From: Fasciolopsis buskii
Taxonomy: Eukaryota; Platyhelminthes; Trematoda; Plagiorchiida; Fasciolidae
Length of the DNA stretch: 64,000 nt
NCBI GenBank assembly: GCA_008360955.1
Contig: LUCM01007958.1
Span: 26,118-90,117, forward strand
Direction: 5' to 3'
The position numbers and the translations under genes are program-made. The notes below the pieces were generated by a model. That model ran no database searches. It saw nothing but the letters and a program-made list of their open reading frames with translations, and was not told the origin of the DNA. Positions 39,101 through 63,481 of this stretch are shown one piece after another (the first letter of the stretch is position 1; each line of letters opens with the position of its first letter).

Positions 39101-42100
39101 TAGCTCGCTTCACTTCAGTCAGCACAACCGCTAACTGCGCAATAAACAGCCGCCTTTTCAGTAGTTAGTTCACAGCATCATCTGCTCAAAAAGAACAAAA
39201 ATCAAAGAATAGGATGAGAATGAATGGAACACAATACGTTGAGCAACTATCCAAAAGAGTAATAATTTCAGATCCAAGAAGAAAAATGACTGAGGAAATG
39301 AGACAAAAGCTACTGTCTTCAATCACAGCTTCGGCGATCTGGACCCACACCCGGTATTCTAACTGCACTCACACGAACCAGTACACTAGCTAAAGTTGTC
39401 ATATTGTCCCCATATCATCGACTGATCGCCTGGATCCTTCTTGCAACCCTTGCCTGCCTCGCAGAACAGCACAATGAGGCAGTCGTTATGCACAAAAAGG
39501 TCCCAGCTACATTACCCTAGTCGAATTCAGATCCTCTTCTAACGACTGGACCCTAGGACCCATTAGCTTATGTCTAACCTCCCAGTTATTGGCTAGCGGT
39601 GGCCAAGCAGATAAGGTCGTGGCATTCAGACATGAGAGTTGTGGGTTCGAATCCCCTCGCCGCCAGTCAACTTCCCCATTTGGCAGCCCTCTGTTGGTCG
39701 CGGCACCCTTCCTGAAAAATAATGTACCTTGCTATTTCACTAATAAAAAAGTAAAAGATAAAAAAGAAAAAATCCTCCCACGGTATTCTACCAATTCCAC
39801 GAAGACAGCGGAGTTTAAACGCCAAGATTTTTCCCACATCTTCTCTCAACGGTCGTGTTTCGAAGTGTAGAGTAGAGTAGTATACGCACTGCCATTGCGT
39901 ATACCCGACCTTTTATCGATAATACCATGTCACACCAAAACCACAGAGCTCTCAAACTGGTGGACGTTAATCGAACCTTTTTTATGCGTGAACACACTTC
40001 ATCCGACACAACTAACCAAACAACCAAACCTATCTACCTCACCCAGTTGTTCCCGTGCAAGAACAAGGTTCAGATTCGAGTCAATCCAATCCCACAATAG
40101 CACTTTACACTTTGAAGGTGCAAAACGCATCCCAAACAACTGCACTGTCGTTCAGATGATCGGGAGAAACTTGTAACTTACTTTAGTCTTCACTCAGTAG
40201 CACAATGTTGTTCGCAAATTCGAAACCAGAAAATTTTCTATCTGAGCAAATATCGACGTCACTATTCTCACATGAGGAGAGGGCTGTCTCCACTATCATC
40301 CTAATGACAAAATTGAAAAGAAAAGTTGGAAGCGGGAAATCCTGACGAACACCACATCTCTTGGTGAACTCGGGTCAAATATCGATGTAAGCACGAACTC
40401 GGTTTCGGCTGTTCACATGCAGGAATTGAATAAGTGAAATAAATTCCTTGATAAGATGTAGAGCCACAAAAATGTAAGATCGACTGAGTCGAACGGTGAT
40501 TTCGGATGAAGGAAGAAAGAAATAATGGATCAACAGAACATGTGCTTACTTTCTATGATTTATCGCAAATTGAGTATTTAGTCAGTACAACGAAGACCGA
40601 CTCAGAAATCGGCTTGGTTCTCACACACGCATCTTTCGCAAGTACTAGATAATAATTTGGGGATAGTGCTCGTCCGCTTAATCCACGTTTTCTTAGTAAA
40701 TTCTTTCAGATATTTTCTATACACTCGAGTTTATAGATAGAGTGTCAACAGCCACCCTCCGGTTGATAACACAAATGAAAACCACGGTTTGAACGGTGCA
40801 CACAGAACACTTCAATGACATTTAAAAGATCTTTGATGCGAACATGTTCAGTACTACTTGAACCACGCGGAAAAACATGTAGCAGCATCTCTAACGCCAT
40901 AATGCTTTTCTCAGATTATGGAAGATACGAATGTATCGAAATTTATTCCGTGATAGTCCGATGGATTCAGTCTCACTCGAGCGAAAACTGGCTGCGTAAT
41001 CAAGCGAGGCCAGATAACTAAATGTCTCGAAAAACGAGCTTGTGGTCCAAACTATTTTACCCATGCGGAAAGCAGAGTAATCTGCAACAAAATAAATTCA
41101 ATAACCCTGTTTTCGTTTCATTTGCCAACTGTCCATCATAGCGATCAGATAATCGAATACGCGGATGTTTTACTCTGGTTATTATTGAAGCGAAAAGGTA
41201 TAGCATTTCCGGGAAGGGATTGCACTCAACATAAGACTTACCGGTGTAAAATTTGGCCACGTCTTACTACAGAACGATCATCAGGAACCATCGATCAACG
41301 TCACCACGACGCTTTGAATGTGATCCAGATCGTTCACCAGTTCCACACCTATTATGAGTGTGCCCCTTTGATCACGATTTCAGTCATCAGCCAGCCTAAC
41401 CAAACCACTGAGAAAACTATACAGATGGTTCTCACGCACGCGTCTTTCGCGTGCAATAGATAATGGGTGGAGAAAAATGCCTGCCAGCAGGTTGGTAGCA
41501 ATGCCTACCTAACTAATTCCTCTTTGACGTTCTCATGAAGGCCTATCACATTTCTTCGGAAGTAATTTGTAATCTGTTCTCTTGGCTCCTTAGATCCCAA
41601 CAGCTTTCTAACTCTTGTGAACAAAGTCATAGACGTCTTGTGATGATGAGGTAAAGTTGTAGAAGAGAACTAATGACATGGTAAAATTGGACAGTTCGTG
41701 GTCATTTTTGTCGGTTTATGTGACACCAACATCAACGCGAGATTATCGATTTGGCTTAAAATAGAACGGGCTCATAAAAATATTGAGTGGTCATCGTTGA
41801 CCGATGTAATTCAGATAATATTCTTATAATGAACAATTCCAAAAGTTTCTGTAGAGTGTGTTAGAAACAGGCATGCACGTGGATTAGCAGATCTTCGATT
41901 GGTTTGATCAACGATGTTTTGTTTATTTTTAGGCTGTTTGGTTGGACGAGTGTCGTTTTTCTTATCCGTATTTGGAATTAGTTGAGCGAACGTGCTACTT
42001 CATATAAATCAATGACTGAAGAGGTGTTCTACGTAATTTTCATTTCGGAAATTACAATAAGTATTGAGTTACGGCGAATTAACGTATTCATTAAAAATAG

Positions 42101-43025: not shown

Positions 43026-46000
43026 GAGAACAAAGTGGAGGACTGTGAAGACGGATTGCGACAGCTTCCGCAGTGCTCAAGAGGCGACACTTTGCCAACC
43101 TGGATTGTTGACCTCTGACCTTATACAGGGTCCGGAAAGCTTGCGTTTTCGCATTTGAATGCTCTACAACTCCCGACAGCTTAATGAATATCGGATTTTG
43201 ATCTGTGGACAGAACAGCAAATCGATCATTTCAGTCATAAGCCCACCCGACCCATCAAACGATTTTCGCGTGCACAAATGCGTGGACCTGTGAGCAAATG
43301 TTCGCGTAATTCAGGCGCTTACTGGAAAGATCATGAGTGCTGAAGCAGACTTTTGCATTAAACGGATCCAACAGACAAAGTTGAAAGACCTGTCATAAGT
43401 AAGTTTGACGTTACACTGGGTCTCCTACTCAAGCGTGAATTGCCCAGCATTATCAAGAGGATGGTTGATTTAAAATAGGCTGAGGAAATACAGCTGCTGG
43501 TATGCCTGCAGCGTTCAGTTAGCAGTAACATGTGAAGCATCCTGGACGGACCATTGTCAAGTCCACTATATGTTAGAGAGAATATACCTGCAGATTTTAC
43601 AGTAAGACCAAGGCAACGGTTGACATAAATCACTTTTGCATATCCTGCTTAGAGTTCCAGGAAAGACAACAAGCAACCTACATAACCAGTCGCAGCTGCG
43701 TAGGTTCACTTTCGAATGTTCGAAGTTCATAAAGATAGGTCGCACAATAACCGTGAGCAGTGTTAAATTGGATGAAATACACCCATGGTACGTAGTTTTG
43801 AGTGTGTATCAAAACGTGGGCGATTTTCAAGCCGTTCACCTCTGTACAGGGTTGTTTCAGCAGTCCTCAGTAGCTTTTTCCACAGAGCAGTTATGCCATT
43901 CTTATGATACAGCAGCGGATGCCCCAGTCTCGTGTAAAAACAATTCGTATTTAATCAACACGTATTTTGGACGTTAACGAGAACATAGAACGCTTGTTAT
44001 AGTGTATCCATCCGCTGCTGCTACGGGCATTCAGGAGTCTCGTATAAGGACTGCGATAAGCATTTAGTGACCGAGATTTGCCAAAAAATAGTGAACTGTT
44101 TATGACTGGATTGTTAGTCATGGATAGTAAAAGCGCTCGGTGGCTCGATGTTAAAATCAACCACTGGAACCGAATGTTTTAGATTTCTCCATGCTGATTA
44201 GGTGAAATACTGATTCGTTAGTGAATAACGCTTGTCACTTCCGGTATACTAGGCTACTTTGGCTCATTCAAGTAGAGCTTCAGCAAACAATTCTCGTAGA
44301 AAGCGGAATAAGGAGTGACAAGTTAAACGGACTATAGTTGATCAACCACCCTGAGTTAAATCGCCGCGGAGTAAAAACCAGAGCCCATATTTATTCCCCG
44401 ATTATGACGTAATAAACAGGACGCACCAAAAAGTGCACCTGATGCTTACTGCCCGTGGTTTCACTTGTAAATCACCAAAGTTTTCAGACCCACATGACTG
44501 ATATCGGTCACTCACAATGACAATATGGAAAACAAGTCTAACAGAGTAAAACAAATTAGAAAATCTTGCTTAGCATCCTGCGCTAGGACTTTTCAGATTC
44601 TGTAGAAAGAAACGGCCTGAAAAACCTCTAAATGATGTTCGTGTTGTTTTTGCCCGGCATTTCCCAGGTCTACCAAACATAATTTCGTAAAAACATTTTG
44701 GAATTTGCTTTACTCTGATAATTGTGGAATTCCAAGATGACACGAGGAGCCAGTGCAGCGCGATTCTTGCATGGCGATTACCGGACAAAGGTGTAGTGAA
44801 GTTAAATGAGTGGGAGGAAAAAGAAGAGTGGAAAATTTCGTCAACGAACTCCAGATGCGGCGAGCAGAAAGGCAGCCGAGCTGGAAAATCACCATGAATA
44901 GGCTGAAGTGTTCATGTAACCATATTGGTGGCGTACCCTCTATCATGACGGCAAATGGGTCGATAAAGCTAAGCAGAAAAAGACGCTTCTTATCTAATAT
45001 TCAACGACCCGAACAGATGAATCCACCTTCGAAAAAGGACAAGTGAATTCCTCAAGGCATAGCATTATCGTAACACTTATCAACACACTGTACGATTTAC
45101 TACATAACACATTGCTAATCCACGTCACTACATCAACGAACCCACAACAAATGATTCTCAAATATGAAGTAAAATGGCCGTAAGAATTGAAGCGCACTGT
45201 GACTGCTAGCTTATCGCAACAAAAACTCGAAAACAATAACAGCCAAGGCCGCAAGAAACTTTAGTTTGGCTGAAATGTTGGATTTTATGTGGTCGAATCA
45301 AGTTAATGCAAACAGACTACGGTATCGCCTACTGAGTAGTCACCAAGAGTACGCTTGCGAACGCTATCCTCGGAGTAATCAAAATTGCGGGCAGCACTTC
45401 GAAGCGCAGACTTACAGCGTGTGCGCAACATATCACATTATCGTGCATGAGCTCAGGTTGTGAATAATGAACCAGTGCACTGACTAACCACATTATATTG
45501 AATAAGTTTACTTAGACATCCCCGACCCTTTTTCGTGTGACTCGACTAATATCCAGTCACGAAAGGTATGGCCACTCGTCTCGACAACTCAGAATGCCAT
45601 ATTTTCTTTCAAAACGGGTTCAGTTACAAGGTCAAACGACAGGCTTATAACGGGTTTTAACAGCATTAGAAAAATACCAGCGCATCCACGGATGGCATTT
45701 AGTTATTCGCAACAAGGCCGGACGAACCATTTTTGAATGAACCTCCAGGTAAGATCAACATTCGGTTCATCACGAATAATCAATACAGAGTTAGTTTGCC
45801 AAAAGAAAAGCACGCATTTAAACACCGCCAGTTTTATCCCGCTGAATTTTCTCGTTTTCGCGGTTAGCAAAATATGCACCTCTCGAAGCCACTCGTACAT
45901 ATCTGCGGAGAAACAAGAACACTGCTTACAGGAAAAATCAACTTTCGGAATGCAATCTATCACCTTGGGACATAACGGAGGAAAACCATTATGCAAGCCT

Positions 46001-47685
46001 TTTTATTTGAGCAAATAAAGACTGTTTTGGTGACCATTATTGGATGGAAATGATTTAACAAATGAACGATTTTGAAAGTACAGCGACTATTGTGATTTTA
46101 TTAAAGTTGCCAAGCACATCAAACCTGAAAACGACATTTCAAAACCGATGTAGTGAAAACCTTGATTCACAAAATTATGGAACCCCGATTGAATGATTCA
46201 CGATCCACTGAACTGTGCCGTTTGTATAAACCGGGGTACAAGAGAATAATCAGTTATACTAGCTATCACTTCCTTGGTATATTGTTCACCTTTGTCAAGA
46301 CGTAGGCGTTACCGTAAAATTCTGATTGTGACATCGAGCGCGCATTTTTTCGGACTGGTATATTGATAGCTGTATTGTTGAGATCGGTGCGTTTTAAAAA
46401 TGGAACCGTTAGATGAAAACGTTCAGTAACGGATGTAAAAGTCATAACTAGAAAAAGCATATAGCAAGATATTGTCCGCCGTTGGTTTTGCATAACTTGT
46501 CTCATTGCTAGGGGATGAAGATGACAAATAAGGAAAGGAAGTTCAGTAAATCTAACCAGCGATAGTTGTACCCATACTGTGGGTTATCCTGAGCGCCATT
46601 AATATCTTTGAGACTAATGACTATATTAAACTGCCCACATTCAGATTCTGGATAGAAGATTCTGCCATCACAACGTCTTATTGCCTAGCACACAAACGCA
46701 TGCTGATTTTTATGCAACACCATGAGCAACATTTCGCACCGTGAACCAGAAGAACGATATACATGAAAAAACGAGATGATAGCTACAGGTTGACGATGAG
46801 CAAGCGGACCGACTCAAAAAAAAAACAAAGAAATTAACGGACTAAAAGCTTACTACCTAATGGTGTCAATTTTAATTCCAGATGGAAATAAAATGTACTA
46901 TTAAATCTCCCAATAAAACGGATGCAATAGCATCAAACTCGAGAGGCACCAAAATTTTCAGGCCAAAGGACTTCCAACCTATAGCGTCACACAATGACCA
47001 TAAATTCAAAACCACTAGAGGGCAAAGTCAAAACAAAATATAAGGACATTATAAACGTAGAAAACTACAGTCAACTAATCCCAAGCACTGATGATGCCAT
47101 CTCGAACGGTAAAGACATCTTTGCGGTCAGAATCTTCGGAAAACGAAAAACGCATGAGAACCTGAAAGGTCGCCAAAGCAACAGAAAGGTTGGCTCAATA
47201 AACTGTTCACGCCATGTTGGCTTCAAGTATCAAGCACATTTCGTGACTGCTGAAATTACATGCCAGGATCTGAACCGCATCGTAGTCTGCAATCGATGCG
47301 TTGAATCTTCGAGTACTTGGTGAAATGATTTGCTCACCACAAAGTAATAACTGTGTTTATCTGATCCCATTTAGCCATGAAGATCGTTCAATGGCGTCAT
47401 TTTCGGCGTATTTTGTTTAAGATAAAATTAATTTGAATAAGAAATGACCGGTTACACACTTGCTTCATTGAGGCCGCAGAACAACGACCTCCAAATGAAT
47501 GAACAATCTCGAGGTTCAATTAACGTATTGTGAACAGATGATGGATACCATCGAGCAAGTAAGAAATTACGGGGCAAAATCCATTCAGAGATTTGCAAGG
47601 ACAAATAACATTACCGAGAGCCAAGCATACGATATGTTCAACACTGCATACAGACGCACAAGATGCCATTGATGCAATGACACTG
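43026..47685. other. Intergenic, no recognised feature
   Basis: It lies between the PALS1 3' end and the left LINE arm. The longest frames (113 codons at 43,636 plus; 109 at 46,994 plus; 97 at 45,703 minus) carry no domain or convincing splice sites. The DNA is probably decayed repeat. Confidence 0.5.
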
Positions 47686-50446
47686 CACCTTCACGTGGTA
47701 TGACGGTATAGGATGGCTTATCTCAAGCCGAAGATGCAATCATGCCGAAAGATCAATGGGTAGAGGCCTGACAAAGTAGTCTCCTGGTCCTCACAGTCGG
47801 GGGTTGGTCTGCGTTGGCAGCACAATCGGAAAAATGTGGGAGAATAATCGATACAAGCAGATGGGTTTCCGCTTAGCTATACTCCGCTGCCTTGCGGTCA
47901 GGTTCTTGTCAGAACTAAAGGCTTTGGTTGAGAACCCTAATCGTTCTTCCGCTTAGCGGCTGGACCCCTTAGCAGCACCCGTCCATCAATCCCTTATGAA
48001 TTACAGGACTACAAATAATCACATGCTGCATCGGTCGTCGCGCAGGATAATCAGGACTACGCTGCCCACTGCATCGAGTAGGGTGGGCAGTGAAAATTAT
48101 GTTACTGCTTAGAGTTCTCTCTTTTACTCAGCCTGTCTCTTCTGTCTCTAATCCAATCTCTTTGACCCCTCTGCCTACCCGTAGTGTCTCCACTGATAAC
48201 ATGCTCGATATTCGCAACGGTTCATTGACAAATAGTGTAGTAGGTGGTTTTCAGTCTGCTAGCTCACATTTTCTCAAGCCTCATCAGCCTCTGAATCTCG
48301 AGTACTTTAATGCATGCTGGCCAACAGGCGTGTTTGACTCTGACAGTGGGCTGACTCACTTCCGATTGATGTCCGCTGCGTGAGTGAAACAAGAATTCAA
48401 GATTCGAGTGGAGTAATTCAACTAGCTGCGCCTAATGTCTTGTCATGATATTTCCTGCACACTGCAGAAGACGAAGCAGCTCAAGCGGTGGGTCAATGCG
48501 GTGTCGGAATAGCCTTGAGTGAGAAGGCTGAAGCAGCCCTTCTAGACTGGATCCCAGTTAACAGTCGCTTGTTCACCGTGAGACTGCAGGGATCAGCCGG
48601 AGTCTGGAAGGATAGCTGTGTTAAGCGCAGTTTATCTGTCCTCTCGGCATACAGCCCAACAGACTACAAAACTGACATGCAAAAAAAATCAGTTTTACAA
48701 TGACCTCGTCACCGTTGTTCGGGAGAGCAAAGCACCTGACGCTGTAGCAGTGGCGAGTGATTTTAATGCACAAGCCGGAAAACTGAGCGTATCGGAAGCC
48801 TGTTTAGGTGGGTGCTGTGCCTTGCATGCTCAGCAAACAGATAACGGGGGAAGGCTTCTCCAAATTTGTGCGGAAAATCATCTATTTCTATCTAACGCTA
48901 ATTTCCGACACAGTTCGAATCGCACAGCGATATGGCACTTTAACCTGACAGGCAGTCTGAGTCAGATCGACTGCATTGCAATAAGCTACGACTGGCACTG
49001 TTCTGTTCAGAACTGTAGGTCGTACTGGACCACGTACGTCGAATCGAACCATGCACTAAGTTTAATGTGATTTTTGCTGCAGCTCTACGGCAGCCGACGC
49101 ACACCACAAACCCGACTGGTCGTCAAACATCTGTCTGATTCGGCTGTTCGCAATTATCCGGGGAACTAAGAACTTCGACGGGCAGTGGGGTCAAATTAAA
49201 CAGGCGATGCATTTGGCAGCAGATTTCGCCTGTGGTCCTAGATCTAGAGTTCTTCGAAAACACCGGATCGCGCAAGGATCACTGGGTCTGATGAAGCAAA
49301 AGCGCCAATTGCCTAATTGCAAGATGGTGAATAAGATGCGTCGACAGTTGCACCGTCAGTTGACGATAGGTCTTAAGAATAATCGTGAAAACTGGTGGGT
49401 TACGGTAGCCAGAGCTGGAAGTAACGGACACTTCAGGTGACAGTCAAAGATTGTTTAAGCTTATACGTGACACCGGTGGGCGGCGAACTTCGGTTAGTGA
49501 AGTCGTGTGCGATGGAAATGGAGAGCTCATCCATGGTAGACAACAAAGGCTGGACCGTTGGGCAGAGCATTTCAAGGGTCAGTTTAGCTGGCCACATGCC
49601 AACGTATTTAGGTGGACTTCTGCAGTTGCGAATCCTTGGGAAGTGTCACTTGATCCCTCAACGGAAGCGGAAATGGAGTTGAATATTCTACTTCTGAAGA
49701 AGGGGAAAGCAGCTAGTCCCGACGAACGCCCCCGTCCCTCGCAGTTTCTTTTAGAACTAGGTGGAGGAGCTCTGATGAAATTCCTTACCTCCTTTCTTCG
49801 TGATATTTGGAACTAGGAGCGTATTCCGTTATCGTGGGGTGAGTCACTGATACGGTGAACTATCAAGTTCATTCGAAACGACTAGCGATGTTCGACGGGG
49901 GTGTTTCAGCCCTCCATTCCTGTTCAACTTCGTCCTGGACGATGCCTTAGGAGGTCTTCTGAATGTAGGAGTCGAACTGGGAAACGGTGAGAAGTTGTGT
50001 GATCTAGATTACGCAGATGATGTCGTGCCTTTTCAAATCCGTGGATCATGCACAACGTGCACTAGATAGACCTCCGAAATCTGTTGCCCGGTTCGGTGTG
50101 TGCTTTGCACCTCCAAAGTGTCAAGTGTTGTTACAGGACTGGACGACAGTAGTACCGAACTTTATGCTAAGTAGAGAGGAACTAACGAATATGGACCGTT
50201 TAACTTACCTTGGTAGTTCAATTCTGTTGTATGGTTGCGAGACATTGAATATGTGTCGAAGATGTTCGTCGCTTGGAGGTTTTCAATCACCGATGTGCAT
50301 ATATCACTGATTGGATGGAATGACCCGGTGAGTTATGCTGAGATTAGGAATCTAGCATTAGGTGCCGATTCTGAGAATGCCTTATCTCGGCGTATGAGGC
50401 ATAGTAGACTACGCTGGTTGGGTAACGTCTTGCGTAAGGCAAACAC
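47686..50446 (+). mobile_element. RTE (SR2-like) LINE, defective copy, left inverted-repeat arm
   Basis: A roughly 400 nt leader is followed by broken frames of an RTE polyprotein. Endonuclease part: GVGIALSEKAEAALLDWIPV, ASDFNAQAG, RTDNG-like QTDNGGRLLQIC, IDCIAISYDWHCSVQNCRSY and ESNHAL, where the catalytic SDH reads SNH. A frame slip lies at an A8 run near 48,681. Then come LFKLIRDTGGRRTSVSE and RLDRWAEHFKGQFSWP. Reverse transcriptase: motifs before FLFNFV are deleted, LDYADDVV is kept, and YLGSS joins directly to ILLYGCET through a second deletion. RLRWLGNVLRKANT is the last recognisable part; the 3' end is missing. It cannot encode a working enzyme. Confidence 0.93.
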
Positions 50447-52130
50447 ATTTACCATAATATGACAAGGAACGCTTCGTTGAAAAGGAATGGGAACCCGGCT
50501 GAGTTTTCAAGCGGATGGACCTTAGCATCGTTAATTAGTTACTGAGTATTCTGTGCAACAGAAGCGGTTTCTGTGGAACGTGATGTACGCCTTCGACAGT
50601 AAGCAGTGATAGAATGTAAGCTCCTCAGTTCCCGATCACTACTGGACTCTCGTTTGTCTTGGCGGGTGCTCTATGTTTCATGACTTTTCCCGCACAGCTG
50701 AAAGGAACGAAAAACTCGGAACCGTCCATTTTTACATCTGCCGAACTGGCAAAAGATCAGTCTAGACAAAAGATGAATTAGTTCGTATGTTAAAGCTAAT
50801 GGTAACTGGAATGAAACGGCAAATACTATACAAACTTTACTAAATACAAACGGATAGATAAAGATTTTAGTAAATAAAAAAAACATCTTTGATTGGACGT
50901 TTGGAGAGGTTGTTAGGTATAACTAGTGAAGCTTTGGGATCGACAACAAATAATGGAAACGAAACTCTTTCGCAAACGCTGAGAAAACGAATAACCTGAG
51001 CTGGAGGAATTGAGAATTGTGTAAAAATAGGACGAAGGTCAAAACGGGCAGTTGTAAAGCAACCGGTTCAGTTGAAAAATAAAGAACATTGTTACATTGG
51101 GGGGAAGCGACTGTCCAGACGGGGATGATGATAAACGAAGTCTCTAAGGAGTGCAGACGTGATTCCAGATGATACGCATACATTTGAGTTGGCATATCCC
51201 TGAAAAGTGAGTACAACAGAGCGTTATACAGAAATAAATGTGACAGCCGAGAAAGAATGCGTGGTACATCCATCGATCAACTGCATGTAACGCATTAACA
51301 TTTGAGATTTTGCACTCTAGAAACTAGAAACAAAGCGGGATTCTGTGGACGCAGAAACGACGGACGTTTATGTGAATGGGCTAGGAACCAGTCACATCGC
51401 GTGACGATCACCAGTTCAACACAGAGCATATGGTTCGAACTAGATTGTCGGAAGGTTAAAGGTTATTGAACTGCTCAGAAGACACGTAAATAATGATGGG
51501 ATGAAATATCAAAAAATGCAACAGTTCTCGGCTAGGAAATAATGAAGAGAGATAGAACCGTAAGAAAACGAAATTTTTAGAAAAAACTGGTCATTCCAGA
51601 TAAGCGTTCTTCGGTTTACAAAAATTGATTCAACACTTCGTAGATTCGATGTTGGGACTGACGCATTACATTGAGAAGCATGCCCAACAGGATCGGCTAA
51701 GAAATCATAAATTGGTAGGGATCTTCGTAAATGGTGCACGAGGTCAGCCGTAGATGTAAAAAAAATCCTCGATTGACGCCGATAGGGAAACGATTAGTTT
51801 AATTCAATCAATCTCGGTTCGCAGTCGGTCAAAAGATGCAGAATTTATTAATAAGTTGTTGGCTGTTTGGGCAGATGAGGATGTGTCTATGCTGCCTATT
51901 TAGCGCAGCGGCAAATCCGCATTGTCACGGCCCAAGTCAGCAGATGAAATCGGTAAATCTTGTGGATTGCGCCCATCGAACGACTTTCAAAACTACATCC
52001 AGCCATCGGACGCAAATGTGTCCAGCATAAACTTCTTCGGTGAATATAAAAATCACGGGGAACACGGTAAAAAAATGTCAAAGATACGCCAGAATTTATT
52101 GCTATGGACCACTTACAACGTTGGGCTTGA
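50447..52130. other. Spacer left part: 3' flank of the minus-strand gene
   Basis: It lies between the broken 3' edge of the left LINE arm and the stop codon of the minus-strand gene. It holds the candidate polyadenylation signals at 52,095 and 51,844. No gene was seen. Confidence 0.5.
51844..51849 (-). terminator. Candidate polyadenylation signal AATAAA
   Basis: Minus-strand AATAAA about 280 nt past the stop codon of the minus-strand gene. A second AATAAA at 52095-52100 is only about 30 nt past the stop. Either could serve; neither is proven. Confidence 0.35.
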
Positions 52131-52912
52131 TTATCGAGGTGGGCGCAGATGGCCCATAACATTCATGTACGCATCCTCGTAGAAGTCGCGATAGAAGTGA
52201 TGTTGCAACGGATCCAAAAGAGTGGGTTCCGATGGACAGAAATCAGACACAGAAAATGACTGGTGTTGAGGCGGTATCCAAGACTGTTCTTGCGTTTGAA
52301 TAAAATAAGGCGGAAGAGCCATTTCGTTTGACCAGTTTTGTGTGTTTATTAGTGGCATAAAATTCACGTTATTAGGTGCATAATATGGAGCTGGATTCTG
52401 GTAAACGGATATCATGGAAGGTGTCTGTAGTGTTTGAGAATCTACCCCGTCCGCTGGAAAATTGTGCATCGGTGTAGGATTCATGGAAAACCATTCATTC
52501 ATTAATAGCTGTTGGTTGTTGAGATTCGACAGCGAATTCGGATGTCCGGAAGGCCATCTCGGCGTCCGGATCGCATAGAAGTCATTGCGAAATCCAGAAA
52601 CGTTGCGTCCTCCTGAGATGAACTGTGGATTAGTTCGACTTTGCCTCATATTGGTAACATTAGGAAGTACTTCGTCGTTGTTCCCCTGCTGTTGTGACCA
52701 TGATGCGGGTGGCATAGGCGGCTGTAGAGGACTAGGCACAGCGTTTCGTGGGGTACCACCTGATCTAACGTCTTGACCGAAAGAATCCCGAGGATTAAGA
52801 TTGTTTACGAATGAATTCTTGATACTTTTCACAGACGGTTCGGAGTTTTCGAAAACAGGGCCCATGTTTGCAGTAGTGCTTATTTTAGCACGAGACAGGA
52901 GAGAGTTCAATT
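52131..52912 (-). CDS. Terminal exon of unrecognised gene, Pro/Asn/Gln-rich tail
   Basis: The acceptor is CCTATTTTTTCAATATAACGGCAG|AA. The exon is 782 nt long, enters in phase 1 and ends at a TGA at 52131-52133. It encodes ELNSLLSRAK, then about 250 residues rich in Pro, Asn, Gln, Ser and aromatic residues (for example PSPLQPPMPPASW and NPAPYYAPNNVNFMPL). It ends with an acidic-aromatic motif, HHFYRDFYEDAYMN. This is the longest open coding stretch in the window. Minus-strand AATAAA signals lie at 52095-52100 and 51844-51849. Confidence 0.82.
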
Positions 52913-55900
52913 CTGCCGTTATATTGAAAAAATAGGATCCAGGAAAAACGGAATGAAAATAATGGTGTAGACTCGTACAGATCATACAGATCAGATTCCA
53001 TGAATACAAGACCTCAAAAGGGTGACGATTTTATCGTCAGTTGTTCCATCTATTCACTTATTTTGCTTTTCTGAGTACCAATTCTACAGAAATTACCAGT
53101 TTATCTGCATAGTGCAATGAATCTGTACAAAAACATCATATCTGGTTCTCTCCTGATCACTAGTGAATGGGTGAGTAAGAGAATGAATCAACCTACGAGG
53201 ATTCGCAATTATCTATCCTGTCACGATGCTGAACGAAACAATTAGCACTTCAGATTAAGTAGTATTCGGACGTCTTTCGCTACAGTATCCCAGCTACTAT
53301 TAAGACAACTACCAGCGAGAGCAGAAATAGTACACAAAAGCTCAACAAGATGCGACTGATGTAACTGACCAAAAAGTCATTGTCGTCGTTCAGCGTTAAT
53401 CAGCAGAGAGAGCCCCACTGACTGCTGCATTTCTAACTGGGTTATATGTTCAAATAAACCATGACATTTATCGAAAAAATCTAGGATAACGAAATGCGTC
53501 CCAAGTGATTGAGTGAAGCGAACCTTTCATAAATATAGCCATAACATTCAGCAACAAGAATTTCAAACTCAGAAACAAGTTTGATGAAAAAAATGCGATG
53601 AAAACAGCCTTGTTGAAAATTATAAGCGAAATATATGCAACCCCATAACTATTGCTTACACGAGTTCGCTTGTGGCTAGGGTGCTTACCTTCAATCTCCA
53701 TCGCTGATTCGTCACTTACGTCGCACTAGCAGGAAGAAATCAAAAAAAAGACTTCTCAATATCGCTTACAGATGTCTACTGCAGAAGACAGAATGATGTA
53801 TTTTTTGGGTATCATGTTTTTGATAAGACAAATTAACGAGATGATACTATGCGTGACTGTAGTTGTAGGTGTTTGGTTCGATTTAGTTATCCGCAGATAA
53901 AATAAAGAAATCATAGAATTTTCTTGCTAGGCGAATTCTGTTTCACAAGAATAATATTAAATTCACTTTACTTTGTCAAATCCCTTAAACAAAGAGTTTA
54001 GCGATCCGAAGACATTTGAAATCAGGATAGCGAATCACCATTTTGTACCTATGACCACGAAATCACTAGTTTTTCGATCTTCTGGGTGTAGATTTGACGG
54101 CCTTGCCATCCTAAAACACTCCAATCTTTCGTCATCGGAAAACAAGAGCGAAGCAGTTAGGATCTGCTTTCTTGACCACTACGACGGTTTTAACTGTTGA
54201 CAGGAGTAATGTGCTCCCATTCATCTCCCATTCAGGTGCTGAAGTTTCTCTCGTTAGTCTCCGCAACCGATAAAAATTCACCCGTTACCTCAATGAAGTT
54301 TCGGAATGGTCCACGGACTATAAATTACCTATTGGTCTCCATATATGCAAGGACTATATTTCCTCAGAAGAAAGACAAAATTAAACGGTTTTTAGTGATG
54401 ATTGGCAATTCCAAATCAGTTAACGGGGAACAACTAAGTTGCCATGATTCAGGAAAGAGCCTGGGTGTGACAATTGGACGGAATAATTAAATGGTGACGG
54501 TATGTGAACCTCTGGTTTGCAAAAAACGGATGCCGATATTTCTATGTACCGCCCAAGAAAATCCACTCCGTCGCTGCATACCTTGCCAAACGTTTTGCAT
54601 TTTGGTTTATCCGACCTCACTGGCTTGGTACCCCTCCGGTCATTTTCCGTGTCCCCTGCAAAAAACCCCACAAAAATCTTTAGATCCCTTAACTTTCTAT
54701 GCTCTTGTAGCGGAATAACCAAAGAGCTATTCATTGACTTTGCCAACTCTCAAAGAATCAATGCCGGTCAGAAACTTTCCGACAGAAATCATTGATTCTT
54801 CTCACCACAAACAAGAACATAATCTCAAGGTCGCGGGCTAAAGTATTGGGTGAAACAAATTAGAAAGCAGTCTGGTCAGCCCTCGATCATAGTGAACATC
54901 CCATCTATGAGCCAGTGTAGTTGGATACCAGTCCGTTCTCCGAAATGGAGGTCACCAAGAAGACAGGTGTTCTTAACAGGCATAAACCAGTTGGACAAAA
55001 TGGACTGGCACCATCGTTCTTCAGGGAAGGCGGCGATGTGTGCTGGAGCATAAAGAAGGTTCGATTAACGTCCACCAGTTTGAGAACTCTGTGGTTTTGG
55101 TGTGACATGGTATTATCGATAAAAGGTCGGGTATACGCAATGGCAGTGCGTATACTACTCTACTCTACACTTCGAAACACGACCGTTGAGAGAAGATGTG
55201 GGAAAACTCTTGGCGTTTAAACTCCGCTGTCTTCGTGGAATTGGTAAAATACAGTGGAGTAATTTTGCGAATGGCTGAGAGGTTAGACATAAGCTACAGG
55301 GTCTTAGGGTCCAGTCGTTAGAAGAGGATCTGAATTTGACTAAGTTAATATGACTGGGACATGTTTTACGCTAACGGCATCTCATCAATACTTCTCTTTC
55401 TCAAAACGTTTACTATGCTTTTGAAATTGTACCCGAATGTGTAGTTCTCTGTCTGTTACAAAATGTCTTATATTCCTGACTTTGCATTCACGTTACCACG
55501 TTCATACTACAGAGAATACTCCCGAACAGCGACTGCCTTCTTTCAATAAACAATACCGATCTCAAATCGAACCTAGCTACTAACTCTCCCCTCACCGAAA
55601 GCATAGGATACCGCGGAACAAACATTTTTTTTCAAGCCACAAAGGTGTTTGCCATAAGAGTCGCAGCAGGAACTCCTTCCTCCGAACTAGAAAATGAAGA
55701 AGGATGCGAAAGTCCAATGAAAGTAAAACTTCTATCTTTTGAATTCTGGCATTGGCATCCAAAATTTCTCGATCTGAGAAGGTTACAAACATTCCCTATC
55801 TAATGTGAACAGTTGGATTCGATCAAATTAGCTCGCCCTTGAAACCGTAAGTTTCATCAGTAAAATCGAAATCGGAGCTGTGAAGTGGCCGCTGTATATG

Positions 55901-58900
55901 ATCTCGTTCGAAGGAGGGTGGCGCTGTACCAACCAAAACTGTAACGCTTATTCGGATCTGATCTCATGACCATTACCGTTCCATTCAAATTCCGAAATTT
56001 CATTTGTTAACTGCTAAAACCATTCACGTGTGGGCCACATAAAGGAAAGTATGGTGGATAAACAAACAGCTCTTGAGCAAAAATAGTCGCCCAGTTGTGG
56101 AGAGATCTCGGATACTATTGCATCACTAGCCGCGGCACATGGCTATATCACTCACTGTATCCAACCTTCGCTAATACGGGTTATTTTGAAAACCCATTCC
56201 ACTCGGACCAATAGCCTAGCATAAGTTTTATATATTTCATGTCACAAGCGCACGGTGAAAGTGAATTAAAAAGCTTTAACAAAGAGAGTTTTGCTACCAC
56301 TCAATTAAAAAATGAGGTAAACCTAAACCTTCAGGAAATTTTCAAAAAATAATTTGTACCTTATAATATGGAAGAGCTAGACGGCCTTATTGGTGATCAA
56401 CCATCGGGATCGTAGAATGAATAGATACGTACCTTTAGGGTTGTCTGGACTGAGTTCCTCGCCAAGATTGGTCGATTTGAAGCATTAGGCATTGCAGGCC
56501 AAGGTATGGACTGCTTTGGAGGATTATCCAGAATGCACTTAGGTTTAATTTCTTTTCTGGATCCTTGGGATAAACTATTGTTTTGCGGAACATCCGGTGG
56601 ATGTGAGTATGCAGTTTTAACCAATCCTATTGAACCTGCCTTCTGAACTGAAGAAACAGGAACCGACTGGAGTGGCAGTCTAATCAGCAAAGACGAGTGA
56701 ACTAGAGCACAACAGGGACCAGAGCCGCTGTAACAGTGCAACAAACAAAACGAAGACATTGGAGCCAATGAATACAGAAGCATTGATGAAAAATGACGCA
56801 GAGTCACTCCTCTATTGTGATTAGAAGGAAACAAGTGACTAAAAAACGGCGTTTATAGAAATTGTCAGATTGTTCTATTTCGGCGATGAGAACAAGTTGA
56901 AGGGAAACGTCTTTCGACGAGCTCACGTTCATTTTTATGAAGACTGAATAATAACGACTACAGAAGAAAACCAGGCTAAATCAAGCCGTCTGATCACATT
57001 TCTATGGGATGATAAATAACAATGTGTTGTTCACGGGGATTTAGACTGTTTGGATTAATTATTGGTACGGGAAAAGAGGAACAGTGGCAAATCGTAACTG
57101 ACTCGACCGTTGTTAGTGTCCAGACAATAGTTGTCCCTGACACATTCCACCTGGAACTAACCACTCCAGTAATGATACGCTTACAGTAGAATGATATAGT
57201 ATGTGGTGGCTGCCACACTCGACAGAGGCATCATTCCTAATTTCAGTAAGAAGAATGGTTTTCGCCGAACAATTGGTGCCATAAGACAAAAACTCAACTA
57301 AGATGAAGGCATTATCTAACATTGGGTTAATTTCTGGGAAAAACCACATTCCAACAAATCAGGGCTGAATACAATCCTGCTGCTACTTTGGCCAACCTTC
57401 GCAGGTATCCGGAATTTGCGCGCGGACGTCCGCACGAAGTTTATCATGTACTCCTGTGAAAATCGCGTTATTTTGTTTTAGGAGGGATACTGACTTGTAT
57501 CAAAGATGACCTTGAGTCAACGTATTTTACATACGCTGTGGTAATCGCTTGCGATGTTATCGCGACAGTGAAGCAGTCAGCAGAAAAGAGAAAAATTGTT
57601 TGGCACCACAATGTAGAAGATAATGAACTGGTTAATAATTCTGAGTCCAATAAAAATGTGTATAAACTTTTCCAGCATCTTAAACTAAACAAAGCCACAA
57701 TTCATGTCATATTAAAAGAAAAAAACTATAGAGAAAAAATGTCGGCCATAAAGGAAATCAGAACCATCCGAAAATAAACATACAGTTGAGTACATTCATG
57801 TCAAAGACAGAGCTACATTCCTCTCATCCTGATACGGATTACTACCGCTAGTTCATTGACCACTACCAAATAATTAATTAATGTTTGATTGGTCAAAGTG
57901 TTGAGCATCATCATCATCATCGTTGAGCATTATATAGCAAAGCACACCTCAGTGACCACTGCCTTATCCCCAGGGCTTCACCAAAAAAGAGTGAACATCC
58001 GAGTGGAACGAGGAACGGACCTAAACAGGCGGACAAACATAGGCATCCCGCAACAGCCAAAACACGGAACACAGTCAAACTCTACTAACGCACTCTCTCA
58101 ATCATTCTGCTTCGGTAGAAAATGACAATGTTCACTGTTCATGGTTCACTGCCATATCCTTCAGTATCACCAGCCGGCTAGTTGACGGGACTTGCGGACC
58201 CCAAATACGAAGACGCGAGACAACAACTTCACCTAAATTCGCTGTACAGTTTCTTATTCCATTTTACCACGTTACCACGTCATTTGATGACCTCCACAAT
58301 ACGTCCTCCACTCCACGGGAGGAACGCGGGACGGTAAACGAGTGTTCGCCTTACGCAAGACGTTACCCAACCAGCGTAGTCTACTATGCCTCATACGCCG
58401 AGATAAGGCATTCTCAGAATCGGCACCTAATGCTAGATTCCTAATCTCAGCATAACTCACCGGGTCATTCCATCCAATCAGTGATATATGCACATCGGTG
58501 ATTGAAAACCTCCAAGCGACGAACATCTTCGACACATATTCAATGTCTCGCAACCATACAACAGAATTGAACTACCAAGGTAAGTTAAACGGTCCATATT
58601 CGTTAGTTCCTCTCTACTTAGCATAAAGTTCGGTACTACTGTCGTCCAGTCCTGTAACAACACTTGACACTTTGGAGGTGCAAAGCACACACCGAACCGG
58701 GCAACAGATTTCGGAGGTCTATCTAGTGCACGTTGTGCATGATCCACGGATTTGAAAAGGCACGACATCATCTGCGTAATCTAGATCACACAACTTCTCA
58801 CCGTTTCCCAGTTCGACTCCTACATTCAGAAGACCTCCTAAGGCATCGTCCAGGACGAAGTTGAACAGGAATGGAGGGCTGAAACACCCCCGTCGAACAT

Positions 58901-61900
58901 CGCTAGTCGTTTCGAATGAACTTGATAGTTCACCGTATCAGTGACTCACCCCACGATAACGGAATACGCTCCTAGTTCCAAATATCACGAAGAAAGGAGG
59001 TAAGGAATTTCATCAGAGCTCCTCCACCTAGTTCTAAAAGAAACTGCGAGGGACGGGGGCGTTCGTCGGGACTAGCTGCTTTCCCCTTCTTCAGAAGTAG
59101 AATATTCAACTCCATTTCCGCTTCCGTTGAGGGATCAAGTGACACTTCCCAAGGATTCGCAACTGCAGACGTCCACCTAAATACGTTAGCGTGTGGCCAG
59201 CTAAACTGACCCTTGAAATGCTCTGCCCAACGGTCCAGCCTTTGTTGTCTACCATGGATGAGCTCTCCATTTCCATCGCACACGACTTCACTAACCGAAG
59301 TTCGCCGCCCACCGGTGTCACGTATAAGCTTAAACAATCTTTGACTGTCACCTGAAGTGTCCGTTACTTCCAGCTCTGGCTACCGTAACCCACCAGTTTT
59401 CACGATTATTCTTAAGACCTATCGTCAACTGACGGTGCAACTGTCGACGCATCTTATTCACCATCTTGCAATTAGGCAATTGGCGCTTTTGCTTCATCAG
59501 ACCCAGTGATCCTTGCGCGATCCGGTGTTTTCGAAGAACTCTAGATCTAGGACCACAGGCGAAATCTGCTGCCAAATGCATCGCCTGTTTAATTTGACCC
59601 CACTGCCCGTCGAAGTTCTTAGTTCCCCGGATAATTGCGAACAGCCGAATCAGACAGATGTTTGACGACCAGTCGGGTTTGTGGTGTGCGTCGGCTGCCG
59701 TAGAGCTGCAGCAAAAATCACATTAAACTTAGTGCATGGTTCGATTCGACGTACGTGGTCCAGTACGACCTACAGTTCTGAACAGAACAGTGCCAGTCGT
59801 AGCTTATTGCAATGCAGTCGATCTGACTCAGACTGCCTGTCAGGTTAAAGTGCCATATCGCTGTGCGATTCGAACTGTGTCGGAAATTAGCGTTAGATAG
59901 AAATAGATGATTTTCCGCACAAATTTGGAGAAGCCTTCCCCCGTTATCTGTTTGCTGAGCATGCAAGGCACAGCACCCACCTAAACAGGCTTCCGATACG
60001 CTCAGTTTTCCGGCTTGTGCATTAAAATCACTCGCCACTGCTACAGCGTCAGGTGCTTTGCTCTCCCGAACAACGGTGACGAGGTCATTGTAAAACTGAT
60101 TTTTTTTGCATGTCAGTTTTGTAGTCTGTTGGGCTGTATGCCGAGAGGACAGATAAACTGCGCTTAACACAGCTATCCTTCCAGACTCCGGCTGATCCCT
60201 GCAGTCTCACGGTGAACAAGCGACTGTTAACTGGGATCCAGTCTAGAAGGGCTGCTTCAGCCTTCTCACTCAAGGCTATTCCGACACCGCATTGACCCAC
60301 CGCTTGAGCTGCTTCGTCTTCTGCAGTGTGCAGGAAATATCATGACAAGACATTAGGCGCAGCTAGTTGAATTACTCCACTCGAATCTTGAATTCTTGTT
60401 TCACTCACGCAGCGGACATCAATCGGAAGTGAGTCAGCCCACTGTCAGAGTCAAACACGCCTGTTGGCCAGCATGCATTAAAGTACTCGAGATTCAGAGG
60501 CTGATGAGGCTTGAGAAAATGTGAGCTAGCAGACTGAAAACCACCTACTACACTATTTGTCAATGAACCGTTGCGAATATCGAGCATGTTATCAGTGGAG
60601 ACACTACGGGTAGGCAGAGGGGTCAAAGAGATTGGATTAGAGACAGAAGAGACAGGCTGAGTAAAAGAGAGAACTCTAAGCAGTAACATAATTTTCACTG
60701 CCCACCCTACTCGATGCAGTGGGCAGCGTAGTCCTGATTATCCTGCGCGACGACCGATGCAGCATGTGATTATTTGTAGTCCTGTAATTCATAAGGGATT
60801 GATGGACGGGTGCTGCTAAGGGGTCCAGCCGCTAAGCGGAAGAACGATTAGGGTTCTCAACCAAAGCCTTTAGTTCTGACAAGAACCTGACCGCAAGGCA
60901 GCGGAGTATAGCTAAGCGGAAACCCATCTGCTTGTATCGATTATTCTCCCACACATTTTTCCGATTGTGCTGCCAACGCAGACCAACCCCCGACTGTGAG
61001 GACCAGGAGACTACTTTGTCAGGCCTCTACCCATTGATCTTTCGGCATGATTGCATCTTCGGCTTGAGATAAGCCATCCTATACCGTCATACCACGTGAA
61101 GGTGAAGTCTCGTTGTGACAGTTATGGTGAGCGATTAAGCTGGCGAGTGAGTTTCGTTGATTGATGCATAACATATGATGACCTGGAAAACACTCAAAAA
61201 CTTTCCTTATTTTCGCATAAGTTTTTTATGCATGCAAGAATGAAATGAAAACTGTCCTGCCAATTGATCAAAAGAGACTGTACTACGGATGGGAGGAATT
61301 TCGTCGTGACGGAGATATTCCTGCCTGCACAAGAAGGATTTTGTCGAATATTCTTATGTTACCTTCAATCCCCTTCATGTTTTTGCCTGATAAAATATTT
61401 AATGGTGTGTAATAAAATATAAGGGTGACTAGTTCAATAAAGCAGGAAGTACGACCATCCCGGGCAGCAATGGAAAATGATGGGCGCGCTAATTTGGTTA
61501 CCGAATAATTTTGTTCACGGACGCATCGAATGTGGTCACTCGTAAAACTAGCAAATTGAACATCTCCAGCGGGAAACTTTCCAAAAAATGTTGCCCCACT
61601 TTCTAATATCTGTCTAGTTTATCGACCCTGATAAGAAATGGGATGCACTACGGATTGCGGAAATCTGTCGCTGTGGTAAAGAACTTTATCTAAGGAAACC
61701 ATAACTTTTCCAAAAGGAGCTCTTTGTTGCACTCCACCAGAAATTAGCAAACAAGTTATCTTGCGCAGAGAGGTTTTTCGACCTGCCGTACGTTCAGTAA
61801 AAGAAAGACTAACTTTAGAATATGATCCATATAAAACACAATAGCTTGGATCTTTAAGTTATCTAAGATAGGTTTGATATCCTAGAGTAATAATCTTGTG

Positions 61901-62710
61901 GGCTACCTACCTACACAAGGGATACTAAAGTGGAACTTGCAAAACATCTTAATTTAGCAGATAAACATAATTTCACACCGAAAATTCATTGGAAGTCAGT
62001 GACAGGCTTATCGATTACCAGTATTTACGGATGTTGTACTTCGAGCAATACACGCGCCAAACCTCACTTTGTCCACCCTAACGAAGTTGCAATGTTATAG
62101 TTGAGATATACTACTGGGAGAGTAACACTAAAGTTTGTGCTTCCCCAACTCCGCTGAACAACAGAAATGCAAATACAAATAATTTATTCCTTTCGCTGAT
62201 GCGTACTGGAGTTGGAAATCTTCATATGACCCCTGTTGCATGAACTTCGACAACAACGGTATAAATAGCGCTACGTGCGAAACCACCGGGCTGTTGAGTG
62301 ACAATCACCCCAGTGCTCAATCATGCGAAATGGCTCTCATGGGTGAGTCCAGATAAGCACCTAGTCGTGGGACCAGTACGTGGGTGACGGGTAATTTTAG
62401 AATAATACAGTGACACTAGAAAACTAGCCGTGATTGAGAGTATGAAAAAGTCTGTCCACTAGTGAATTACCAACTTCAGTCTGCACTAAATTCTCCGGAT
62501 GACCAATAAGGAAACACGTCAGAAATGATAAACGAGCTGAAAACATAACTAAAATGCGAAGTGGATCTTATCTTTAATAGGCCTAATACGCAGGAAATCG
62601 ATACATACAAACGAGCAGTTAAGAACATCAGTTGCAGCAGTGAACTTACCGGAGGCTCAGCGCACCGTCGAACTCCCTATCAAACATGACTTCCAAGCGA
62701 CCTGTTCCAT
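52131..62710 (-). CDS. Unrecognised gene, 3' part, four-exon model
   Basis: Minus-strand model in transcript order: 62710-62650, 56679-56433, 53725-53689, 52912-52131. Entry is phase 1. The junction phases are 2, 0 and 1, and each matches its partner, which is strong support since the exons were found independently. The predicted product is at least 375 residues: a compact segment GTGRLEVMFDREFDGALSLR, a Ser/Pro/Lys-rich stretch, an acidic patch and a Pro/Asn/Gln/Ser-rich tail. I do not recognise the family. The composition suggests a regulatory or RNA-associated protein, but that is inference only. The 5' exons lie right of 62,710, probably beyond the window. The LINE arm at 57.9-61.1 kb sits in the first intron of this model. 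Confidence 0.7.
52913..53688 (-). other. Intron between micro-exon and terminal exon of the minus-strand gene
   Basis: GTAAGC to CGGCAG, 776 nt, phase 1. No repeat recognised. Confidence 0.7.
53689..53725 (-). CDS. 37-nt micro-exon of unrecognised gene
   Basis: The acceptor has a long pyrimidine tract (TTTTTTTGATTTCTTCCTGCTAG) and the donor is GAAG|GTAAGC. The 37 nt start in phase 0 and end in phase 1, which is what is needed to join the neighbouring exons (exit phase 0, entry phase 1). It encodes CDVSDESAMEIE plus a split Glu codon. Without it the flanking exons are out of frame. Confidence 0.7.
53726..56432 (-). other. Intron of the minus-strand gene, with RTE fragment
   Basis: GTACGT to CTGCTAG, 2,707 nt, phase 0. 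It holds the plus-strand RTE fragment at 55.05-55.40 kb; the rest is unassigned. Confidence 0.68.
55047..55400 (+). mobile_element. RTE LINE fragment, C-terminal part
   Basis: Near 85-90 percent similar by eye to the reverse complement of 39,500-39,990, including IKKVRLTSTSLRTLWFW, MVLSIKGRVYAMAVRILLY and the LGHVLR motif. It preserves the uninterrupted target sequence where the 39.6 kb copy carries a SINE. It is truncated at both ends and lies in the intron between the first two mapped 3' exons of the minus-strand gene. Confidence 0.85.
56433..56679 (-). CDS. Exon of unrecognised gene, Ser/Pro/Lys-rich
   Basis: This 247 nt exon has acceptor TTTGCTGATTAG|A and donor CTAAAG|GTACGT, entering in phase 2 and leaving in phase 0. 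The open frame reads LPLQSVPVSSVQKAGSIG at its start, then Pro/Asn/Ser/Lys-rich sequence including PKCILDNPPKQSIPWP, and ends SVQTTLK. It is low in predicted order. The in-frame Met codons upstream of the acceptor are intronic. Confidence 0.68.
57905..61104 (-). mobile_element. RTE (SR2-like) LINE, defective copy with 3' end, right inverted-repeat arm
   Basis: This is the reverse-oriented near-twin of the copy at 47.7 kb. Paired coordinates sum to 108,788 from 48,090 to 50,446 without any indel, and one 2-bp CA indel lies in the leader near 60,953. It carries the same frameshifts, the same reverse-transcriptase core deletion and the same SNH change. Unlike the left copy it continues past RKANT through a degraded C terminus (GPQVPSTSRLVILKDMAVNH region) and a 3' untranslated part. 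It ends in a GAT/ATG triplet run at about 57,907-57,921, typical of RTE tails. It lies in an intron of the minus-strand gene. Confidence 0.93.
57907..57921 (+). repeat. CAT triplet microsatellite
   Basis: Five CAT units on the plus strand; read on the minus strand they are the ATG/GAT tail of the LINE. RTE-clade elements commonly end in short tandem repeats rather than poly(A). Confidence 0.8.
62650..62710 (-). CDS. Exon of unrecognised gene, conserved-looking core
   Basis: This 61 nt exon lies between acceptor TTGTTTTCAG|AT and donor CTCCG|GTAAGT, both close to consensus. Only the frame giving GTGRLEVMFDREFDGALSL is open; the other two contain stops. Entry phase 1 and exit phase 2 fit the next exon, whose first base A completes an Arg codon. 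The charged, hydrophobic-patterned residues look like part of a folded domain. Confidence 0.68.
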
Positions 62711-63481
62711 CTGAAAACAATACGGTAGGAATATGAACAAGGAAAAATATTGGTAAAAAATAATGGATTACTTAGAAATAACGAAAAAATCGCGAATCGT
62801 ACAGCATTCAAGAAATCACGGACAAAAAGGCAGTCCGGAAGATTCTTCAAGCTTATAAAGAGAATCTAAAATAAATCAATGGAACATTATGGTCTGTTAG
62901 ACTACGAGTACTCATGATATAGGCGACTCTTAAATATCTTTTGAAACTGGGTCTCATCAAATAAGCATTGGCATGGATTATGAACCGTTAAGGTGAATGT
63001 TGAAATGGAGCTGACTCAACGCCCATATCATGATTCTGGTTATGTAAGTGTTGCATGGTTACTAGACGTCAGTTTTACTTCCATTATCGCGCATTTCAGA
63101 ATACGACGTCCGCAATTGCCAATGGAGAGAACAGTGGCTTTGTGTGGGTTGCAACGTTTAGCTTTCATTAAGTTACTAAATTTATAACACTGGTAACTTT
63201 TTTATTTTTGCCCATTTTACTCTTTTCATTGGTAAAACGGCGAATTACACAGTTCTTCAGGAAGGCGGTAGAGCCTAACTGAAGGCTCCCAAGTAGGGGG
63301 TCAAACCGACCGTTAGAGAATATGAATGCATGACTTTCAGATTGAGACCCCAACACGGCGACCGTTTGACTAGCACTAGTAACGGAATCGCTTAGACCCG
63401 TTAGCCATCAAATTTCGAAATCCAATATTAAAACTCTACCGACTATTTTTAGCACAGAAAAAAGCAAACCTCACCTAATAG
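62711..63481. other. No recognised feature
   Basis: It lies upstream of the first mapped exon of the minus-strand gene and is presumably its intron. No exon ending with one leftover base could be identified with confidence. Confidence 0.45.

Follow-up and report, generated by a model that had tools for sequence, protein, structure and literature searches.

How two stretches of DNA can be nearly identical to each other while the sequence on either side of them is not is the question raised by a locus of the fluke Fasciolopsis buskii. The DNA analysed here (the window) is a stretch of 64,000 nucleotides, bases 26,118–90,117 of contig C4685, and the assembly searched comprises 703 Mb in 6,974 contigs. 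The window contains an inverted repeat with arms of about 2.76 kb and, judging from sequence comparison, both arms are old, broken copies of one dispersed family of long interspersed nuclear elements (LINEs). We consider it likely that these two LINE copies were homogenised after their insertion by intrachromosomal non-allelic gene conversion.

Two LINE copies in inverted orientation

A BLASTN self-alignment paired 47,675–50,446 (+) with 61,115–58,342 (−) over 2,774 columns at 99.68% identity, with seven mismatches, three of them within the outermost 11 bp, and one 2-bp gap. Between 47,686–50,446 and 61,104–58,342, the arms as delimited in an initial annotation of the window, there are four substitutions (49,597; 49,600; 49,618; 50,441) and one 2-bp indel near 47,838. 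That annotation had described a near-perfect 2.76 kb inverted repeat, a coordinate sum that is constant save for a 2-bp indel and a handful of substitutions, and had proposed a full self-alignment to count the differences; the alignment, now run, agrees on all three counts. The differences had also been called dispersed, but three of the four substitutions lie within 22 bp (49,597–49,618), where the state of the left arm is absent from the aligned family copies and from the pieces found on contig C44. The arms are separated by a spacer of 7,895 bp. Over the 76 kb of C4685 that were compared, this is by far the strongest self-match, the runner-up being 233 bp at 94.4%; the window contains no N, and no tandem repeats were found in 46,000–63,000. 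The inverted repeat is real in the assembly and chance is ruled out.

The nature of the arms, not recognised in the initial annotation, is indicated by their relatives. One of these, L003, has an 863-aa frame in which endonuclease (PF03372, PF14529) and reverse transcriptase (PF00078) domains are found together by Pfam, as in LINEs with an apurinic/apyrimidinic (AP)-type endonuclease. The best PDB matches of its protein are LINE-1 ORF2 proteins, and among named proteins the closest is one of Fasciola hepatica (76% identity), most others from trematodes standing at 45–53%. Copies were scored for the best 40 of 16,015 candidates, and copy numbers are lower bounds. Among these, the other copies are 77–82% identical to the arms over the main match, most 3′ matches being lower, with the exception of fragments on C44, which are 93–100% identical. 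The family 5′ end is similar at unrelated insertion sites, 15 of 16 copies reaching it, most with a TGTCACAACGAGACT-like start after differing flanks. Set against the family, the two arms are missing segments at identical places, the alignment breaking at arm positions about 2,166 and 2,531, as well as about 30 bp close to the 5′ end. In the right copy the 5′ end resembles that of the family, and the element continues beyond the 3′ limit of the arm as far as about 57,906, where it terminates in an ATC/GAT repeat; the left copy ends at about 50,446, without the 3′ end of the element. At 49,597, 49,600 and 49,618 the right arm carries the state of all aligned family copies having a base there. 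At 50,441 its state is found in most copies, the A of the left arm occurring in L012 and C44b and a T in L016 and L019.

The two arms have unrelated flanks, and a search of the assembly with the left one (46,200–47,685) gave a single match. The 11 bp immediately beyond the left arm agree with the 5′ end of the right copy at 8 of 11 positions, a score equalled at 62 of 63,989 window positions, and they look like the left copy's own unconverted edge. Because the flanks are unrelated, the left copy lacks its 3′ end and the outermost 11 bp are diverged, the arms are not taken for a single duplication; one of recent date is disfavoured by the differing flanks and the diverged 5′ edge. An inverted segmental duplication by template switching, which would have carried the right copy into the left site, is very unlikely. 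It would agree with the missing 3′ end of the left arm and with the rarer state of this arm at all four sites, but flanking DNA is not common to the arms, which do not run into a shared non-element flank as in a palindrome, and the left arm starts no further than about 12 bp from the 5′ end of the element; nor would such a duplication account for the mosaic pairs, diverged at their edges, on other contigs (see below). We find it scarcely credible that two recent retrotransposition events started from the same defective source, mobilised in trans. Such events are suggested by the left boundary near the element's 5′ end and by the few further fragments of the arms' subtype on C44. However, LINE reverse transcription starts at the element's 3′ end, which the left copy does not have; both arms share internal losses and about 20% divergence, and no further full copy of their subtype was present among the best 40 of 16,015 candidates.

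A terminal-inverted-repeat or foldback element was rejected: the arms are LINE copies, and the spacers between the LINE copies of contigs C1599 and C6098 are related neither to each other nor to that of the window, only short repeats being common to the three besides the LINE. With 50,447–57,900 as query, the first 653 bp were found repeated on C44, and the other matches listed (best 40 of 949 candidates) were short dispersed repeats.

The history that we favour, local gene conversion, would begin with two independent insertions of the same LINE family, about 8 kb from each other and oppositely oriented. Intrachromosomal non-allelic gene conversion would later have overwritten one copy with the other across nearly the whole of their common length, so that only the outer 5′ edge of the left copy stayed diverged. 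The donor was more probably the right copy, since it is more complete than the left and shows, at each of the four substituted positions, the state commonest in the family. The copying, in that direction, would have taken place in the germ line by break repair. The last homogenisation would date to roughly 0.4 million years ago, an order of magnitude only, from 4 substitutions in 2,761 bp and a mutation rate borrowed from another fluke, given as 1.73e-9 per year in the accessible part of the source (PMC8519440).

Identical tracts between neighbouring copies

All 435 pairs of the first 30 loci were compared, using the longest alignment per pair. The five same-contig pairs gave the five longest identical runs: 1,758 bp in the window (C4685), 1,656 on C1599, 661 on C4757 (direct, 59 kb apart), 554 on C6098 and 341 on C3227 (inverted, 39 kb apart, 89% identical overall). 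The best run among the 430 different-contig pairs was 146 bp, and the median over all 435 was 55. Identical runs of 341–1,759 bp, in both orientations, were present in 11 of 11 same-contig family pairs compared over at least 1.5 kb and less than 60 kb apart. Long identical tracts between same-contig copies thus occur on eight contigs besides the window's, again in both orientations, and therefore nothing particular to the gene apparently bracketed by the arms is needed. As gene conversion would leave them, near-identical tracts lie inside otherwise diverged copies at non-allelic positions. The C1599 pair has six differences in the first 42 bp of the element, seven in the next 3.2 kb and three in the last few bp, and the C3227 and C4757 pairs are mosaics in which blocks with near-zero difference stand within sequence diverged by 10–30%. 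The third C4757 copy has runs of 633 and 588 bp in common with its two neighbours. These three direct copies are spaced by about 31 kb (28,865; 59,753; 90,217), and homogenised tracts are common to them while the compared flanks are not. Within the window, a second inverted pair, of another repeat, has a 191-bp core (39,789–39,979) with two differences between flanks of about 80–85% identity (0 of 20,000 shuffles).

Locus L035 on C44 (23,819–26,471) is a mosaic of arm pieces and 653 bp of the window's spacer (50,447–51,099) at 93–100% identity, in which a single N at 25,629 is flanked on both sides by duplicated ends of 681 bp. The locus is either a misassembly or a relative of the left arm that has been rearranged.

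The flanks of three contigs (C395, C1127 and C2559) were fetched without knowledge of their content. C395 contained a direct pair of the LINE family at 99.4% identity with an identical run of 859 bp, and a 736-bp inverted pair of another repeat at 79% identity with a run of 206; a run of 111 was found on C1127. Over the three contigs, runs of at least 100 bp were present in 3 of 9 same-contig pairs and 0 of 21 between-contig pairs (p 0.02). For repeat pairs of any family in six stretches, three of which had been picked for their pairs, the corresponding counts were 7 of 21 and 0 of 138 (Fisher 2.6e-7). A second search, with another copy, then listed four new same-contig sets (C5865, C644, C3349 and C2400), for which it had been noted before the sequence was seen that pairs less than 60 kb apart should have runs above 150 bp. 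The three such pairs behaved as expected, with runs of 848 (C5865), 546 (C644, where nearly equal search scores had already hinted at the outcome) and 1,182 bp (C3349), and identical runs in the 72 different-contig pairs of this second set reached at most 113. The C2400 copies, 149 kb apart, are 90.9% identical, with a longest run of 74 and an identical fraction of 0.05 (1 kb of each copy). Over 12 pairs, of which the three from C4757 are mutually non-independent, the fraction of identical 50-bp windows declines with spacer length (Spearman rho −0.81, p 0.0014; rho −0.75, p 0.007 without C2400); in different-contig pairs this fraction is 2.1%. The homogenising cause thus seems to be general, and the close same-contig pairs and the decay with distance fit intrachromosomal non-allelic gene conversion.

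The tracts also contain variants seen in no other compared copy, at 67 of 1,608 sites in the window pair, 32 of 1,658 in the C1599 pair and 4 of 341 in the C3227 pair. Of the tract sites, 0.9–4.2% carry shared private variants; for comparison, 60 different-contig pairs taken as a sample had them at 73 of 168,991 sites, a control that excludes the window arms and counts a variant as private only if it is absent from every other copy, neighbours included, which lowers it somewhat. The tracts hold the copy-specific variants of one partner and are therefore not the family consensus; one specific neighbour was copied. This copying would be explained by gene conversion and also by a local misuse of the neighbour's reads.

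Proposed gene conversion and the assembly

Such a misuse of reads is the basis of a further alternative, a locality-dependent assembly artefact. The interior of one copy would have been filled or collapsed with the reads of its neighbour, by mate-pair gap closing or linked-read local assembly, the edges anchored in unique flanks remaining correct. We regard this as unlikely, although far from negligible. Diverged edges with identical interiors in many pairs, the near-zero differences inside the tracts and the C44 mosaic, where 653 bp of spacer sequence stand between LINE pieces, are what it would produce, and in 4 of the 11 close pairs a copy contains or adjoins an N run or single-N join. The identical runs shared by different-contig copies, with a median of about 55 bp, are long enough for an assembler to switch copies, and an earlier argument that diverged copies miss the words needed for switching was dropped on account of this median. 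On the other hand, pairs 29, 39 and 59 kb apart are also affected; the usual range of mate pairs is shorter than this, and linked reads could reach that far. The fetched copies contain no N in 7 of the 11 close pairs, intermediate levels of divergence are seen in C644 and C3227, the profiles are mosaic, and the 191-bp tract of the other repeat lies within 80–85% flanks, where shared words are rare. Because of the 55-bp median and the N at 4 of the 11 close pairs, we slightly raised our estimate for the artefact and slightly lowered that for conversion. The initial annotation had used the sparseness of the differences as an argument against an artefact, a weak one, as heterozygous sites of a single copy could give the same pattern. 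Better arguments are the divergence kept at the edges, the copy-specific mutations in the tracts, the pairs 29–59 kb apart and the decay with distance.

Several observations weigh against gene conversion. Almost all close pairs are homogenised, and their tracts contain very few differences; this is more uniform than expected from an ageing biological process, and more than the precedent of human Alu elements suggests, and would also be expected of local assembly collapse. The assembly contains N runs and single-N joins, one of which joins the unmerged 681-bp duplicate ends on C44. Another lies inside one C6098 copy, beside a cluster of differences, and the other C6098 copy ends in an N run, its end thus being an assembly gap; altogether, a copy holds or borders N in the C6098, C395, C5865 and C3227 pairs. 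At each of the four substituted sites the rarer state is that of the left arm, and three of these sites are clustered, whereas conversion should be followed by an even spread. The evidence sought for a diverged 3′ edge in the left copy was no better than chance, 869 of 4,000 random stretches scoring as well. Not every same-contig pair has a tract either. Tracts are more frequent between close copies of one chromosome at the level of contigs, with the exception of L007, which has no common tract with the other C44 copies (longest run 61). The same-contig pair of C2559 has no run beyond 44, the longest run between two family 3′ ends of C395, a 494-bp pair, is 77 (permutation p 0.005), and several short same-contig pairs are without any tract.

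Gene conversion between repeats is a process of known kind, and what would be unusual here is the tract length, the range and the near-completeness. For human Alu elements lying near each other, non-allelic gene conversion was reportedly described by Aleshin and Zhi in 2010. In the accessible portions of two studies, Alu gene conversion takes place within about 10 kb and falls with distance (PMC8230782, PMC6598467). As far as these portions go, the fluke copies resemble Alus in that similarity between copies of a dispersed retroelement is greater for neighbours than for distant copies, and declines with distance. They differ in their tracts of 0.3–1.8 kb, in involving copies up to 59 kb apart and in the identity of most of the compared length in the closest pairs. 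For human long terminal repeat (LTR) elements, the available text reports that linked donors are favoured and that tracts are short, with maximum tracts of 14–450 bp and a mean of 99 bp (PMC4921805). The preference for linked donors and the tracts between paralogous variants are similar here, whereas the fluke tracts measure 0.3–1.8 kb. In yeast, according to the accessible parts of two reports, inverted repeats that are far apart or diverged are able to interact, either in single-stranded DNA or while breaks are being repaired (PMC10164571, PMC6103520). That work, as described there, concerns experimental rearrangements, and the fluke case a homogenisation in a natural genome. A literature search for trematode cases of such conversion gave none among the titles listed, which is no proof of absence from print.

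A broader proposal, for and against which we are evenly balanced, is that LINE copies within tens of kb of each other evolve concertedly by conversion, with tracts of 0.3–1.8 kb between direct and inverted copies up to about 60 kb apart, a range several times that reported for human Alus, and that some inverted pairs, among them the one at the probable 3′ exons of XRN1, may also cross over and segregate as inversions. If conversion is the cause, ages estimated for clustered repeats from their divergence are wrong, neighbouring LINEs give rise to long, near-perfect inverted repeats that could rearrange genes, and the fluke genome would be a strong natural system for studying conversion range, tract length and the effects of orientation. 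If the tracts are an artefact, clustered repeats are falsely identical in the assembly, and repeat-based conclusions drawn from it need checking.

The probable bracketed gene and features of the window

Table 1. Positions in the window of the LINE copies, the second inverted pair and the candidate exons.
Feature	Position	Strand	Basis
Second inverted pair, left member	39,768–40,000	+	191-bp near-identical core; shuffle test
Apparent diverged 5′ edge of left LINE copy	47,675–47,685	+	8/11 matches to 5′ end of right copy; family 5′ ends
Left arm: LINE copy, 3′-truncated, near-identical to right arm	47,686–50,446	+	Self-alignment; truncation relative to family
Spacer between arms; right end is the 3′ part of the right LINE copy	50,447–58,341	.	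Self-alignment, sequence
Open frame, possible terminal exon in spacer	52,131–53,009	−	No Pfam match; no homologue but itself
Second inverted pair, partner of 39,768–40,000, 15 kb away	55,035–55,266	−	Self-alignment; listed matches on other contigs 69–73% identical
Open frame followed by GT donor, possible spacer exon	56,434–56,834	−	No Pfam match
3′ part of right LINE copy, ending in ATC/GAT repeat; absent from left copy	57,906–58,341	−	Copies on C1599, C6098 and C395 align to about 57,906–58,572
Right arm: same LINE; commonest family state at the four substituted sites	58,342–61,104	−	Self-alignment, family alignment
Probable exon upstream of right arm, fragment of Xrn1 SH3-like domain (weak)	62,649–62,711	−	PF18129 E=0.031; AG and GTAAGT splice signals
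3′ end of third LINE copy, cut by contig end	63,484–64,000	−	Family comparison

The arms probably bracket the 3′ exons of a gene. According to the initial annotation, the spacer carries the last three exons of a minus-strand gene, recombination between the arms would flip these exons, and the arms could pair in RNA, both putative consequences. The claim on the exons is only partly supported: there is an exon-like segment outside the right arm (62,649–62,711), while the large frame 52,131–52,985 matches only itself, a protein search with it having returned one protein, its own. The possibility that the gene is XRN1 arose from a resemblance, which was then tested once with Pfam: 62,649–62,711 (−) scored 14.7 bits against PF18129, below the family cut-off of 26.2. 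Nothing was found in a PDB search with the same 21 residues, and a motif scan for the rest of the Xrn1 domain returned eight lines, none convincing. On the resemblance of this segment, the bracketed gene may be XRN1, and exons further upstream of 62,649–62,711 may lie past the contig end.

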